64,000 nt of DNA, taken from contig CALXKU010000005.1 of NCBI GenBank assembly GCA_944389025.1, positions 1 through 64,000 on the forward strand. Reading direction: 5' to 3'. Below, in pieces: positions 36,248-41,215 of this stretch. Each line of letters opens with the position of its first letter. Position 1 is the stretch's first letter. A model generated the notes under the pieces. The model was not told where the DNA came from. It did not search any database and was given only the letters and a program-made list of their open reading frames with translations. The stretch is from an uncultured Spirochaetaceae bacterium (lineage in GTDB: Bacteria > Spirochaetota > Spirochaetia > Sphaerochaetales > Sphaerochaetaceae). Made by a program: the position numbers and the translations under genes.

Positions 36248-37252
36248 TCAGCTTTTGCTTTCCAAGACGGAATTGAGTTTGAGTCCAGCAGCAAGCGTCT
36301 CATTAATGTCTTTCCTCACCCACTCTGGAGATAAGACTTTGACATGAGGAGTACGTTCAAGAATCCATCTTTTCAAATCGAAATACGAATGGGTTCTTGT
36401 TTTCATTACCAATATACCGTCCTCTTTTTCTTCAAGTGTTGTTGATTCCGGCCAATTGATTGCCTTCTCAAAAGGAGCTTGATCCGCATCAATTTCAACT
36501 GTGACTTCCGTTTCATCAATGTCACAGATGAAACCGAATGGATCATCAAGGAGTTTGACTACATCTGTATCATCAGGCAGAATCTCCCCTTCAAAAATAC
36601 GCTCTATTTTCTCTATACGCTCAAGAGCTATCACCCTTAGTCCATTGAATCTGTTTTTAACATAGGCATAGCTATCGCCCTTGTGGATAAAAATGATGAG
36701 GGGAAACACCGAGTAGCTGAAGGTCCTCTTTCCTCCAGCATTCCGATATTCCAACGTGACCCATTTCTTTTCTTTTATCACTTTCAAGAGTTCTGATGTG
36801 ACTGTACTGAGTTTCTTGTTATCGGTGTTCTTGCGCAAAGTCTTCGTGTTGACTATCAGAACCGGCTTACGCTGTCCATTCTCAATCAGAGCACCACGTT
36901 CTGCGGCCATCAGCTTGAGCTTATTGAAAAGCCTTCTTGCATCTATTTCAATACCGGGAACAGAATCAGAGGCATTGATCATATAATTGAATACAGCCTT
37001 CTCTTCGTCAGAGAAATCCAAGGATGGAAGATATTCAGCGAATGCCCTATCCGCATGATAGCGTTTCTTCTTGGGATTATCAGGATCAGGCATGTCATAA
37101 ATCGGGAACATCATTGAATCGAGCTGATTTAGAATTGAAAAGACAGCCCGAGGAGTCTTATCCAGTGCTTCCGATAGTTCTTCGATAGTAGCCCCACCGT
37201 CACGATGTATCAGCCTTGTTGCAATGATGTATTCATCCAGATAATTTTTCAT
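36248..37252 (-). CDS. WYL-domain transcriptional regulator (second copy)
   Basis: A 334-residue regulator related in layout to the one at 31701-32699: N-terminal helix-turn-helix (DGGATIEELSEALDKTPRAV) and a WYL domain (WVTLEYRNAGGKRTFSYSVF, then FPLIIFIHKGDSYAYVKN), with a C-terminal extension. It is divergent from the AAA+ gene across 70 nt, repeating the regulator-versus-effector arrangement of the first WYL gene. The start is the only upstream ATG. The gap 36096-36247 shows nothing recognisable. Confidence 0.84.
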   Translation of the reverse strand: MKNYLDEYIIATRLIHRDGGATIEELSEALDKTPRAVFSILNQLDSMMFPIYDMPDPDNPKKKRYHADRAFAEYLPSLDFSDEEKAVFNYMINASDSVPGIEIDARRLFNKLKLMAAERGALIENGQRKPVLIVNTKTLRKNTDNKKLSTVTSELLKVIKEKKWVTLEYRNAGGKRTFSYSVFPLIIFIHKGDSYAYVKNRFNGLRVIALERIEKIERIFEGEILPDDTDVVKLLDDPFGFICDIDETEVTVEIDADQAPFEKAINWPESTTLEEKEDGILVMKTRTHSYFDLKRWILERTPHVKVLSPEWVRKDINETLAAGLKLNSVLESKS

Positions 37253-37322: not shown

Positions 37323-39317
37323 ATGCTTTACTACAAATTCAATCTTACAAATGAACATAGAGAGCAGCTTGCAAAAAATGATGACAGTGAATTCGTGAGT
37401 AAGGTCAATTCAGCAATCGGAGAAGTGAACAACAAGCTGGAAGGGAAAGCTTACGCTCTTATTAGTTCTGTAACAAGGAAAGGCAGAAAGCTTCGTTGCT
37501 GTGCAGAAATACTCGATTACTCCATCACGCCAGAAGCCATCGGTCAGATGATAAAAGATGAGTTAGATGAAGAATATGAAATAGATAATATCGCAGAAAC
37601 CACACTCTCACGTTTTGATTCCCTCGCCGACGATGCTTTTAATTATGATCTGGCGCATAGACAGTTTCCAGGTGGTCTTATGAGCAGTGATGAATATTCT
37701 TACATCTTCAGGCGCGGATATGCCAAGGAGATTCTGATCCAAAAGAAAATGAATAAGAAAACGGCTATGCGAAACGTAGCCGAATTCTGGACGCATATCA
37801 GTGGACTGGCTGAGGAAATCGAGAGGATATTTCTAGTAAAGACATCTTCGTATAAAGGCAATCCCGTACACTATGCGATTGAGATTGAGAGTACTAAAGA
37901 CAGGATAGAAGTACGTAATCTCCTTATTTCCTGTCTGCTTGAACAGAACAGAACCATCCTCAGAAGAGTTACTGAGATAAAACTCAATACAGTTGCTGAG
38001 TTATCCACAGAAAGATTATCCGAATTCTTTGAACTGCAGAAATGCGGCATAGTTGTCGTTTCTCTGTACAAGAGTTTTGACAGAGGTGATTCTCTCAACG
38101 ATATGCATCGGGCAATGGATGATCTGGTTGCACAAATAAAAGGAGTAAAAAGGGATGTACTGTTTGTCTTTGAATTCTCAAAAGCTGCAGAACCATCATG
38201 GAAGTACATAAAGAGTTCGCTGAAAGAAATCAATTTCATAGAACTGAAAGAGAAGAATCTATCAAACGCGGAGTCAAGGAATTTCATTGATAAACTTGCA
38301 GCATCTGATAACATCAAAGACCGGACATCACTCATTAGATTGATTGATGAGTCCTCATACTCAGTAGGCGATCTCAAGGCAATCTATTCATCATGGTACG
38401 ACAAGCATCTTTGTTCTGCAGTCTTTCCTGCTTACTCGGATCTTTCGGGATATAGTATTAATGACATAAAGCAGAATAAAGGAAATGCCTATCAGAAGCT
38501 TTCAAATATGATCGGGCTAGATGATGTTAGAGCTGTAATAACAAGTGCAATTGATTACTCGCGTGTCCAGAGCCTATATGAGAAAGCTGGCATAGCCAAT
38601 TCTGAAATGACACGTCACATGGTCTTCTATGGCAATCCAGGAACAGCCAAGACGACATGCGCCAGGCTATATGCTCAGATAATGAAAGACAATGAACTTC
38701 TGAAGAAAGGACATCTTATCGAAGTCGGAAGGAAGGACATTGTAAGCAAATATCTTGGCGGGACAGCGCCTTTGATCAAAGAATACTTTGAAAAAGCTGA
38801 CGGCGGTGTGCTTTTCATAGATGAAGCCTATTCCCTTGTCGATGACAAGAAAGGTCTCTACGGGGATGAGGCAATAAACACAATCGTACAGGAAATGGAG
38901 AATAGAAGGGATTCTGTTGTCGTGATTCTTGCGGGATATCCAGAAGAGATGGAAACTTTCCTGTCACGGAATCCGGGACTGAGAAGCAGAATCAGTTTCC
39001 ATGTCCATTTCAGGGATTATACACCCAAAGAACTCTTATCCATTCTGAAACTGTTCATCAGCGAAGCGGGAATGGATCTTGAAGATGCAGCAACACCAAA
39101 GCTTCTGAATATCTTCAAAGAAGCTACAGAACAAAAAGACTTCGGCAATGGAAGATTCGCACGTAATCTCTTTGAACAGGCCAGACTGAGACAGGCTAGC
39201 AGGGTCCTCCATATCGCATCACCTTCCGATGCTGATATCCGTACTCTCTCTGCTGATGATTTTATCGAACCAGAAAGGAAAGAAGAGAAAAGACGACATA
39301 TAGGATTTGTCTTCTAA
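37323..39317 (+). CDS. CbbX/SpoVK-like AAA+ ATPase with long N-terminal region
   Basis: A 664-residue AAA+ ATPase. The C-terminal half has Walker A GNPGTAKT (437-444), a pore-loop region (SKYLGGTAPLIKEYFEKA), Walker B VLFIDE (496-501) and an arginine-finger segment (NPGLRSRI), the pattern of CbbX, SpoVK and EccA proteins, which remodel protein complexes as hexamers. Residues about 230-365 resemble a degenerate first AAA module and lid (VLFVFEFS... then SVGDLKAIYSSWYDK). The first 230 residues are unfamiliar. AAGGATGG lies upstream of the ATG. It is divergent from the second WYL regulator and presumably its target. Confidence 0.86.
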   Translation: MLYYKFNLTNEHREQLAKNDDSEFVSKVNSAIGEVNNKLEGKAYALISSVTRKGRKLRCCAEILDYSITPEAIGQMIKDELDEEYEIDNIAETTLSRFDSLADDAFNYDLAHRQFPGGLMSSDEYSYIFRRGYAKEILIQKKMNKKTAMRNVAEFWTHISGLAEEIERIFLVKTSSYKGNPVHYAIEIESTKDRIEVRNLLISCLLEQNRTILRRVTEIKLNTVAELSTERLSEFFELQKCGIVVVSLYKSFDRGDSLNDMHRAMDDLVAQIKGVKRDVLFVFEFSKAAEPSWKYIKSSLKEINFIELKEKNLSNAESRNFIDKLAASDNIKDRTSLIRLIDESSYSVGDLKAIYSSWYDKHLCSAVFPAYSDLSGYSINDIKQNKGNAYQKLSNMIGLDDVRAVITSAIDYSRVQSLYEKAGIANSEMTRHMVFYGNPGTAKTTCARLYAQIMKDNELLKKGHLIEVGRKDIVSKYLGGTAPLIKEYFEKADGGVLFIDEAYSLVDDKKGLYGDEAINTIVQEMENRRDSVVVILAGYPEEMETFLSRNPGLRSRISFHVHFRDYTPKELLSILKLFISEAGMDLEDAATPKLLNIFKEATEQKDFGNGRFARNLFEQARLRQASRVLHIASPSDADIRTLSADDFIEPERKEEKRRHIGFVF

Positions 39318-39358: not shown

Positions 39359-39703
39359 TCACAGTATGCTTTTTGGCTTATCTTTATCAGCCATCTCTTC
39401 CTTAACTTATGGCAAATTGAGCTTCGTCAATAAATATGAAATACTGCTTATCAGAAGCAGTCATATGCTGTCGTATATAGTCTTTGAGGTTATCTGGATT
39501 ACGAAGTTCACTGTAATCATCATCGTCAAGAGGAATCTTTATGATGCAGTCTTCATCAGTTCCATGTGCCAAAAAATAATCAGAAAAAAGGTTGAAAAGC
39601 AGATAGGATTTTCCACACCTTCTTACACCGGTGTGACCTTAATCATACCATTTCCTATCTTAGATATAAGTCTGTCCATGTATTCCGGCCTATCAATTAT
39701 CAT
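39359..39703 (-). pseudogene. Remnant of an AAA_14-type ATPase gene
   Basis: The minus strand encodes the N-terminal part of a second ATPase of the AAA_14/DUF4143 class. Starting at ATG 39703 it reads DRPEYMDRLISKIGNGMIKV, then one base is missing where GTC-ATC-ACC is expected. After the shift it continues TGVRRCGKSYLLFNLF (Walker A) and YFIFIDEAQFAIS (Walker B), followed by a second frameshift, KEEMADKDKPKSIL and a stop at 39359. The rest of the gene is missing. It lies between the AAA+ gene and an intact relative. Confidence 0.8.
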
Positions 39704-39709
39704 ACTCAC

Positions 39710-39822
39710 TCCATTTTATATTTTGTGAATTATTACAAGTTATATAAAGCATAATGGAATGGAGTAATCATGCAAGGCTATTTTATATTTTCTGTAATTT
39801 TACCAATTATATAAAATACAAA
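39710..39822. repeat. Two imperfect AT-rich repeats upstream of the ATPase remnant
   Basis: A segment of about 34 bp containing TTTTATATTTT and ATTATATAA occurs twice, 67 bp apart (from 39714 and 39781). Read on the minus strand each holds a near-palindromic GTAAnAATTnAC. They lie where the promoter and operator of the broken ATPase gene would be, parallel to the repeats at 41174-41215. Confidence 0.5.
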
Positions 39823-39847: not shown

Positions 39848-41140
39848 TCAAGGTGCTAATAGTGAAATCGGGATTTCATATACTCCATCGGGACGCCTTC
39901 GGGCATATTTACCTGCGGTTATCACCATCAGAAATGATGGCTCTTTCATACTTGAGTAATTCATCTTCTCCTTTATTTTAAGAAGATTTCTGGCACCTTG
40001 ATCGACCCTTTCAGGATTGAATAGCTTCACCTCAAACATCGCCCATCTCTGATCCCTGAGCTCTATTACGGCATCAGCTTCCAAACCTTTGTAATCCCGA
40101 TAATGGAATACATTACCATTCATAGATGTCGCATATACCCTCAAATCTTTTATCACGTAAGACTCGAAAAGAAATCCAAATGTCTTAAAATCCTTGATTA
40201 ATCCCCCAGGGGAAAGACCTAGAGAAGCAACAGCTAACGATGGCTCGGAAAGATGACGTGTAGGCATTCCCTGCACTCTTACTTTTGATCTTACACTTGG
40301 TGCCCACGCTTCAAGGTCTTCTGTAATGAACATCGACTCTAAAAGAGCAAGATATTTATTAAACGTCTCCTCGTTGAATAATGTATCCTCATTACTGCTC
40401 AAATCTTTTCGAATCAAATTTTTCGAAGCCTGTGTCGAGACATTCCTGGAATAGGAGCGCAAAAGTCTTCTGACTTCACTTGGATTTTTTCTAAGTCCCA
40501 TCTCCTCCAATTTTCTCTGAACATCAACATTTATCAGTTCATCAAGAAGAATATAAGGTATCTCCAAAGCATCTTCATCCGTATCATCAATTGAATTCGG
40601 CCATCCTCCACGGCAAAGGGCCAATGCGGCATCCTCAATGCTGCGATCCGAGTGCTCACTTATATCCATATTTCCATCTTCGAAGAGTTTTGACAAAGAT
40701 ACCTTTCCATAAGAAAACCCTGTTTCATAAGAGCTCATCGTATGCATCTTTAAATTTGCAATACGACCGAAACCCGAATGGAATATCTCACTTTTCGACT
40801 TTTCATCAATAGGGGTTGAAGATCCTGTTAAAATGAACTGACCTCGCTTACCCCTGTTATCGACCTCACGTCTTACAGCATCCCAGAGTCTCGGGGCATT
40901 CTGCCATTCATCAATCAAGAGTGGAGCTTCCCTGTTAAGAACATCTGAAGGCATCGCATTCGCCCTTGCGATAAGATCCTTTCCCTCTTCTGAATTATCT
41001 AGCGTAACCTCTGATTTAGCATACTGTCTTGAAGATGTGGTTTTGCCGCACCATTTTACCCCAGTAACCAAAACAGCACCTGAAAGCCTCAACAGTTTTT
41101 CAAGCTGTTTATCAGATATTCTTTCCCTGTATTTCTCCAT
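39848..41140 (-). CDS. AAA_14/DUF4143 ATPase
   Basis: A 430-residue protein with Walker A GVKWCGKTTSS (about 28-38), Walker B LLIDEWQNAP and a C-terminal DUF4143 domain. The C-terminal motif GLEADAVIEL followed by FEVKLF has the E/D...ExK spacing of PD-(D/E)XK nuclease folds, which is typical of this class. The family (COG1373) is common in anaerobes, often in multiple copies and near mobile or defence genes; the function is not established. A -10 box (TATCAT) lies 7 nt before the ATG without a Shine-Dalgarno, and paired repeats lie just upstream. Confidence 0.85.
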   Translation of the reverse strand: MEKYRERISDKQLEKLLRLSGAVLVTGVKWCGKTTSSRQYAKSEVTLDNSEEGKDLIARANAMPSDVLNREAPLLIDEWQNAPRLWDAVRREVDNRGKRGQFILTGSSTPIDEKSKSEIFHSGFGRIANLKMHTMSSYETGFSYGKVSLSKLFEDGNMDISEHSDRSIEDAALALCRGGWPNSIDDTDEDALEIPYILLDELINVDVQRKLEEMGLRKNPSEVRRLLRSYSRNVSTQASKNLIRKDLSSNEDTLFNEETFNKYLALLESMFITEDLEAWAPSVRSKVRVQGMPTRHLSEPSLAVASLGLSPGGLIKDFKTFGFLFESYVIKDLRVYATSMNGNVFHYRDYKGLEADAVIELRDQRWAMFEVKLFNPERVDQGARNLLKIKEKMNYSSMKEPSFLMVITAGKYARRRPDGVYEIPISLLAP

Positions 41141-41173
41141 AGTGTTAATGATAGAACAAAATAATTAAGAAGT

Positions 41174-41215
41174 CTAGTATGGTAAATTCACCACACCTAG
41201 TATGGTAAATTTACC
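41174..41215. repeat. Paired operator-like direct repeats
   Basis: CTAGTATGGTAAATTCACC (41174-41192) and CTAGTATGGTAAATTTACC (41197-41215) are two 19-bp copies differing at one base, spaced 23 bp start to start (about two helical turns). The second contains the perfect palindrome GGTAAATTTACC. They overlap the -35 region of the ATPase gene, so binding would probably control it. Confidence 0.7.

Follow-up and report, generated by a model that had tools for sequence, protein, structure and literature searches.

The present analysis concerns a gene encoding an AAA_14-DUF4143 ATPase, and the direct repeats that precede it, in a stretch of 64,000 nucleotides from an uncultured Spirochaetaceae bacterium (contig CALXKU010000005.1 of assembly GCA_944389025.1, positions 1 to 64,000), hereafter called the window. 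The gene, its repeats (designated iterons) and a putative promoter were delineated from the list of open reading frames (ORFs), Pfam and an AlphaFold2 model (gene), a promoter scan (hexamers) and repeat comparison (iterons):

39848..41140, minus strand: intact AAA_14-DUF4143 ATPase gene, 430 amino acids, KWCGKT type
41148..41153, minus strand: putative -10 hexamer TATCAT, 17-bp spacer
41171..41176, minus strand: putative -35 hexamer TAGACT, which overlaps iteron copy 1
41174..41192, minus strand: iteron copy 1, proximal to the gene, GGTGAATTTACCATACTAG in gene orientation
41197..41215, minus strand: iteron copy 2, GGTAAATTTACCATACTAG in gene orientation, with a palindrome at 41204-41215

The preliminary description of this locus had reported paired 19-bp repeats, 23 bp apart, ahead of the ATPase gene. 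Both copies are present, identical at 18 of 19 positions with a start-to-start distance of 23 bp, and their self-match score of 16 exceeds that of every shuffle of the 200 bp upstream (maximum 14; 0/1000 dinucleotide shuffles reach 16). The palindrome ascribed to the repeats is perfect in copy 2 (GGTAAATTTACC), but copy 1 carries one mismatch (GGTAAATTCACC); at up to 2 mismatches, GGTAAATTTACC has 5 matches in the window for 1.5 expected. As also described, the repeats reach into the -35 region, the nearer copy overlapping the putative TAGACT hexamer. TAGACT-17-TATCAT (41176 to 41148, minus strand) is the sole promoter-like site found upstream of the gene, a weak call by itself (1 found for 1.1 expected in shuffles). 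The earlier observation of the repeats is confirmed, and the pattern is wider than first stated.

To what extent related genes carry such repeats was assessed by scoring direct repeats in the 200 bp before each gene (threshold, at least 10), other ORFs of the same loci serving as controls. The same-family search with the window protein covered 101 genomes, 79 of which gave a match. Set A comprised 90 same-family genes, namely 30 loci and 60 further matches chosen for full length rather than all matches, and set B the 80 top-ranking of 586 relatives from GTDB contigs, reduced to 79 after removal of one locus with a run of N (L170; keeping it would give 69/80, and its N run also adds one control match). 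One locus whose upstream sequence is affected by a contig edge (L084) was counted as a miss, and the two sets contain near-identical loci in common (e.g., L044/L185 and L029/L121). The threshold was reached by 149/169 homologues, with a period of 23, 24 or 46 bp in 148 of these. In set A, it was reached by 81/90 genes (period 23 in 66, 24 in 8, 46 in 6 and 32 in 1) and by 19/212 control ORFs; in set B, by 68/79 genes (period 23 in 61 and 46 in 7) and by 56/464 control ORFs, the control repeats having mostly other periods in both sets. The set B arrays span Bacteroidota, Bacillota, Actinomycetota, Spirochaetota and one archaeon (L149, a strong array; the other archaeal locus, L130, scores 8). 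Plasmid copies in Bacteroides ovatus and Collinsella have period 23, and one phage-labelled contig has period 46. Across lineages, the sequence of the repeat varies and its spacing is kept. A 77%-identical homologue (L021) lacks a clear repeat (score 9), its 164 bp of upstream sequence appearing unlike that of its relatives.

Within the genome of origin (2.31 Mb, 39 contigs), GGTRAATTYACC is confined to the two window sites, and the 19-mer allowing up to 3 mismatches has elsewhere only a single match on contig C6 and a paired site on contig C10. A regulon sharing the window motif is ruled out because intact copies are absent elsewhere in this genome and thus private to the window gene. Absence of the motif before related genes, which the preliminary description had named as evidence against its proposal, is literally what this genome displays; the homologues, however, have diverged repeats at the same place and with the same 23-bp spacing. 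Among 13 DUF4143 matches in the genome, 6 of the 11 examined score at least 10: the window gene, L002 (period 32), L005, L006 and L007 (33) and L010 (70), every sequence being different. The repeats of L005 and L006 reach only score 12, and the three exact repeats of L007 have one further match in the genome, with 3 mismatches. A further locus, L309 (G000:C10:1-2500), contains at 390-467 an array similar to the window iterons, made of three repeats at 23-bp spacing. No ATPase match adjoins it within the 2.5 kb; a frame for a D12-class adenine methyltransferase starts about 0.42 kb away and the contig begins 390 bp away. This solo array is possibly a remnant, or an array with a role of its own.

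Alignment of 159 of the 170 arrays (11 were dropped for a weak array, an N run or short upstream sequence) yielded a common unit that is only weakly defined, approximately CCAA-n7-A-A-Y-n-AAAAT over 23 bp, the middle of which is most variable. Most arrays are short, with 2-4 copies in 114/147 genes; the longest hold 17 copies in 480 bp (L124) and 14 copies in 367 bp (L061), and these two might pass for CRISPR-like repeats (clustered regularly interspaced short palindromic repeats). Among protein pairs at 30-50% identity, at least 80% of the motif is shared by 0/41 pairs within a genome and 2/2504 between genomes, and three near-identical pairs within one genome have a common motif. Repeat differences thus follow protein divergence, with no sign of selection for difference. 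Active insulation of paralogues was likewise considered and left no sign in these data, within-genome pairs at 50-60% identity being slightly more alike, not less.

The position of the arrays relative to the promoter was evaluated for 128 genes with aligned arrays, 80 of which have a promoter score of at least 7. For 61 of these 80 genes, the -35 box is restricted to 5 of the 23 array phases (offsets -5, -3, -2, 17 to 20, 41). The last repeat overlaps or abuts the -35 box, an arrangement that would fit repression by exclusion.

The protein itself offers a candidate reader for such sites. It matches DUF4143 (PF13635; 97.2 bits, gathering cut-off 28.1) and AAA_14 (PF13173; 56.1 bits, gathering cut-off 27), and in 66 sequences including the window protein, the Walker A and B residues G27, K29-K33 and D77-W79 are invariant and T34 is conserved in at least 90%. 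No NCBIfam model matches it, and no solved relative was found by sequence at E ≤1. In the AlphaFold2 model (mean predicted local distance difference test score 93.8), a winged helix is formed by helices 220-232, 240-248 and 257-269, and the model and VIA-align give the arrangement ATPase, helical domain and winged helix, as a similarity of fold only. The best structural matches of residues 1 to ~308 are the archaeal proteins PABY2304 (2qen, Z 14.8) and SSO1545 (2fna, Z 13.7), followed by plant nucleotide-binding leucine-rich repeat proteins (NLRs) and CED-4 (Z ~10-11.5), where unrelated models typically have a best Z of 7 to 8. The core is thus predicted to be a STAND-like ATPase (signal transduction ATPases with numerous domains). 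Fold matches of the tail (residues 305-430) are weak, none at E ≤0.001, the best being Cdn1 (E 6.7e-3), with McrC and Card1 also found. E326, D356, E370 and K372, invariant in the same 66 sequences, follow a PD-(D/E)XK pattern, suggesting a PD-(D/E)XK-like tail in which these residues may be catalytic. The window protein (E 1.5e-55) and L007, L010 and L001 of the same genome match the PADLOC models PDC-S01, which we take to denote a candidate phage-defence protein. With a plasmid, a Thermus AAA_14/DUF4143 gene is reported to rise 6.6-fold, and solely in the Ago-positive strain (PMC4406477), an expression change that is suggestive at most.

Covariation between repeat and protein was analyzed in 126 genes (115 after 90% de-duplication). 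Since raw mutual information with average product correction proved diffuse, we relied on tree-disjoint pairs and on partial Mantel correlations, which relate repeat similarity to protein similarity in 30-residue segments while controlling for the rest of the protein. The correlation peaks at 0.20 within residues 241-310, with a maximum of 0.109 in the 58 segments outside the winged helix, and 0/200 label permutations reach the peak (permutation maximum 0.145). It persists among pairs below 60% identity and with one member per 70% cluster, and in each set alone the top segment lies in or overlaps the winged helix (291-320 in set A, 241-270 in set B), though its lead over other regions is then smaller. 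For repeat positions 4-14 only, the observed value of 0.199 exceeds the maximum of random column sets (0.171). For repeat positions 4-10, residue 258 outranks all other single columns (391 in total). It is located in helix 257-269 of the model, which is taken as the recognition helix. A G at repeat position 9 accompanies Lys258 in 29/30 genes, Asp258 in 9/32 and other residues in 17/53, and a C at position 8 accompanies Asp258 in 27/32 and Lys258 in 8/30. The G9 preference recurs in both sets (Lys258 versus Asp258: 13/13 versus 3/12 in set A, 16/17 versus 6/20 in set B). It is also seen when 12 path-disjoint pairs are drawn from a tree that omits residues 236-300: 11/12 Lys258 members and 0/12 partners have G9. 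The window protein has Glu258. That the repeat changes along with the DNA-binding helix suggests that each protein recognizes and controls its own gene.

We therefore consider it likely that the repeats are private iterons which the ATPase binds through its own winged helix to control, and probably repress, its own promoter. ATPase protomers would line up on 23-bp-spaced sites at and just upstream of the -35 box, and the array-bound ATPase would control transcription of its own gene, most likely as an autorepressor that blocks RNA polymerase. With the recognition helix changing along with the repeat, paralogues within a genome could become separate self-controlled units. The repeats, their fixed spacing, their privacy in the genome of origin, the -35 register and the winged-helix covariation in homologues are computed results; from them we infer that the protein would physically bind and assemble on the array, that regulation would be negative and that the window protein would act like its homologues. 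The preliminary description had left the choice between an own regulator and self-regulation, and the private motif, the lack of a common neighbour, the covariation and the register favour the latter.

Several observations weigh against this interpretation. The window-clade units fit the common unit poorly, and the window gene lies outside the covariation set because its array could not be phased (score -0.5); the phase of its closest relatives is doubtful. Random scattered 30-column sets (400) reach a correlation of 0.212 at most (mean 0.052), above the 0.203 observed over all 20 repeat positions; this closeness and the exclusion of the window clade slightly lowered our confidence. Secondary segments are also high, at residue 341 in set A (0.276, top 0.352) and at 401 in set B (0.169, top 0.195, the latter reached by 2/200 permutations), and the raw mutual information places only 18 of its top 60 couplings in residues 241-300. 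Repeat positions 0-3 couple at 0.53 with residue 350 of the nuclease part, more strongly than with any winged-helix residue, which could mean that this residue also touches DNA or that the signal stems from a clade. Both the Lys258-G9 link and the five promoter phases were picked after inspection; for the former, the set split and the disjoint pairs are the fairer test, and for the latter, the -35 box overlaps the unit itself in 20/61 genes. The score stays below 10 in 20/169 homologues, and periods of 23, 24 or 46 bp occur in 5/19 (set A) and 5/56 (set B) of the positive control ORFs, those of set B having 23 or 24; at least two of the set B exceptions are explained (one, at L151, precedes another AAA_14 gene and one, at L124, shares the intergenic array). 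Among pairs of 50-60% identity, motif similarity is 0.592 within a genome and 0.515 between genomes. Lastly, DNA binding is not a known property of the winged helices in NLR proteins.

Related subfamilies carry upstream repeats of other geometries. Among genes of the GARQVGKT type, 47/67 score at least 10, with periods of 32-34 or 65-67 in 42 of those, and among those of the GLRRSGKS type, 30/47, with periods of 68-86 in 26 of those (13 at 73-74). With five shuffles per gene, the best one reaches 10 for 10/67 and 7/47 genes, and other ORFs of the first of these loci do so in 3/44 and 0/53 cases, respectively; L222, L224, L238, L266, L272 and L275 were left out of the subfamily and shuffle counts, and L224, L238, L266, L272 and L297 (locus edge) out of the analysis that gave these control ORFs and the GPRQ set. 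In four GLRRSGKS-type loci (L251, L264, L274 and L367), units 73-77 bp apart hold perfect or near-perfect palindromes, e.g., GTAGAATTCTAC and TGCGTAAATACGCA. A GPRQ set scored 10/29 (controls 3/43); seven of its positives, with period 32, are low-identity matches (26-32%) whose start, where readable, shows GPRMTGKT or GPRQTGKT. Among phylum-level DUF4143 loci, mostly of the classic GPRQSGKT type, 2/30 score at least 10, not above chance, so that upstream repeats as a property of all DUF4143 genes are unsupported. Phylum-level and own-genome genes together give 8/41 (controls 2/28), excluding the fragments L011 and L012.

A more far-reaching version of autoregulation would see here a self-addressed class of STAND ATPase-nucleases, NLR-like and spread across phyla, in which the winged helix reads a private, diversifying iteron address at the gene's own promoter through a simple code at the helix (Lys to G, Asp to C). 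Array geometry would be particular to each subfamily (23, 32-34 or about 73 bp). The array would be both autorepressor site and parking or assembly site, and loss of occupancy, e.g., by titration or replication of invading DNA, would release expression and nuclease. We regard this version as tentative and, taken as a whole, rather unlikely.

Less probable still is that the iterons act less as an operator than as a functional DNA ligand, serving as assembly platform, self-tag or off-switch for the ATPase-nuclease, or as an origin-like handling site. The 14 and 17 copies of L061 and L124 exceed the needs of an operator, Orc1/Cdc6 on origin DNA is among the Foldseek matches, and the solo 23-bp array at G000:C10:390-467 has no adjoining ATPase match; the arrays nevertheless keep register with the -35 box, and 2-4 copies are the rule.

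It is quite improbable that the ATPase genes are under the control of a separate regulator whose gene lies elsewhere and which recognizes the repeats. Direct-repeat operators can serve small dedicated regulators such as RptR (PMC12255303). Clustering of 1105 flanking ORFs from 170 loci (flanks of only 1.5 kb for the first 30) nevertheless revealed no common neighbour family, the largest cluster covering 18/170 loci and the next 6; the longest member of the largest cluster itself resembles another AAA_14 type. These small clusters led us to reject a dedicated neighbour regulator, while the differences of the repeats between lineages and paralogues and their covariation with the ATPase's own winged helix argue against a regulator encoded elsewhere. 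Finally, accidental or neutral tandem duplications in promoters hardly merit consideration: control regions also reach the threshold, but a single period and position conserved across phyla, covariation with the protein and the near absence of repeats in the mostly classic sample speak against chance.

Next to the intact gene, the window holds a broken paralogue with its own repeat pair (identified by tblastn and repeat comparison, respectively):

39405..39656, minus strand: remnant of a broken AAA_14 paralogue of the L010 (GLRRSGKS) type, with an internal stop
39713..39748, minus strand: repeat copy adjoining the start of the broken paralogue
39780..39815, minus strand: other copy of this repeat ahead of the broken paralogue, at a distance of 67 bp

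The remnant has 41% identity to the L010 protein, with a stop inside the match, and its 36-nt repeat copies are 83% identical and 67 bp apart, just one of them fitting GTAAnAATTnAC exactly. The similar pair reported earlier at this site is therefore real, but its repeat, spacing and gene subfamily differ from those of the window gene, and the shared architecture proposed for both genes survives as paired repeats in the wider sense, not as one motif or spacing. An AAA protein with AAA_lid_6 (37323-39317, plus strand) is convergent with this remnant, and a WYL/WCX protein is encoded at 36248-37252 (minus strand).

In the genomes searched, AAA_14-DUF4143 genes are common and frequently present in several copies, and the family is little studied. 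The term DUF4143 appears in the text of just one paper among 5.39 million. In the literature searched, where subscription papers and bioRxiv are mostly absent, no description of repeats of DUF4143 genes was recognized from titles and abstract starts. Repeats covarying with the recognition helix provide a mechanistic handle, as each protein's likely DNA ligand may be read from its promoter, and the family could yield many distinct repressor-operator pairs. They also raise the question of why an NLR-like fold would read DNA.

With regard to known systems, the PDC-S01 models that match the window protein and three further proteins of its genome carry no description and nothing on cis-acting repeats or mechanism. 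PABY2304, SSO1545, the NB-ARC domain of NLRs and CED-4 have the core fold in common with residues 1 to ~308. A PD-(D/E)XK-like tail is extra in the window protein, and in its homologues the winged helix covaries with DNA repeats. RptR represses a defence island through three promoter direct repeats, but it is a separate, small regulator whose site is a 6-bp palindrome (PMC12255303). Orc1/Cdc6 likewise combines AAA+ and winged-helix domains that read repeated DNA (2qby, Foldseek E 6.4e-06), whereas TM-scores are only 0.23-0.28 and the window family has a nuclease-like tail, several copies dispersed in a genome and repeats at the promoter; Orc1/Cdc6 origin repeats can lie near the initiator gene. 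Plasmid iterons are direct repeats of ~20 bp in the Rep gene's own promoter, read by the winged helices of Rep, which autoregulates its expression. The likeness to the present repeats lies in direct repeats of about 20 bp in the own promoter, but here they occur mostly in genome contigs and with several paralogues, and Pfam gives no Rep domain. Iteron autoregulation is of a known kind; no case in which a widespread family of STAND-like ATPase-nucleases employs it with a covarying code turned up in the literature searched.
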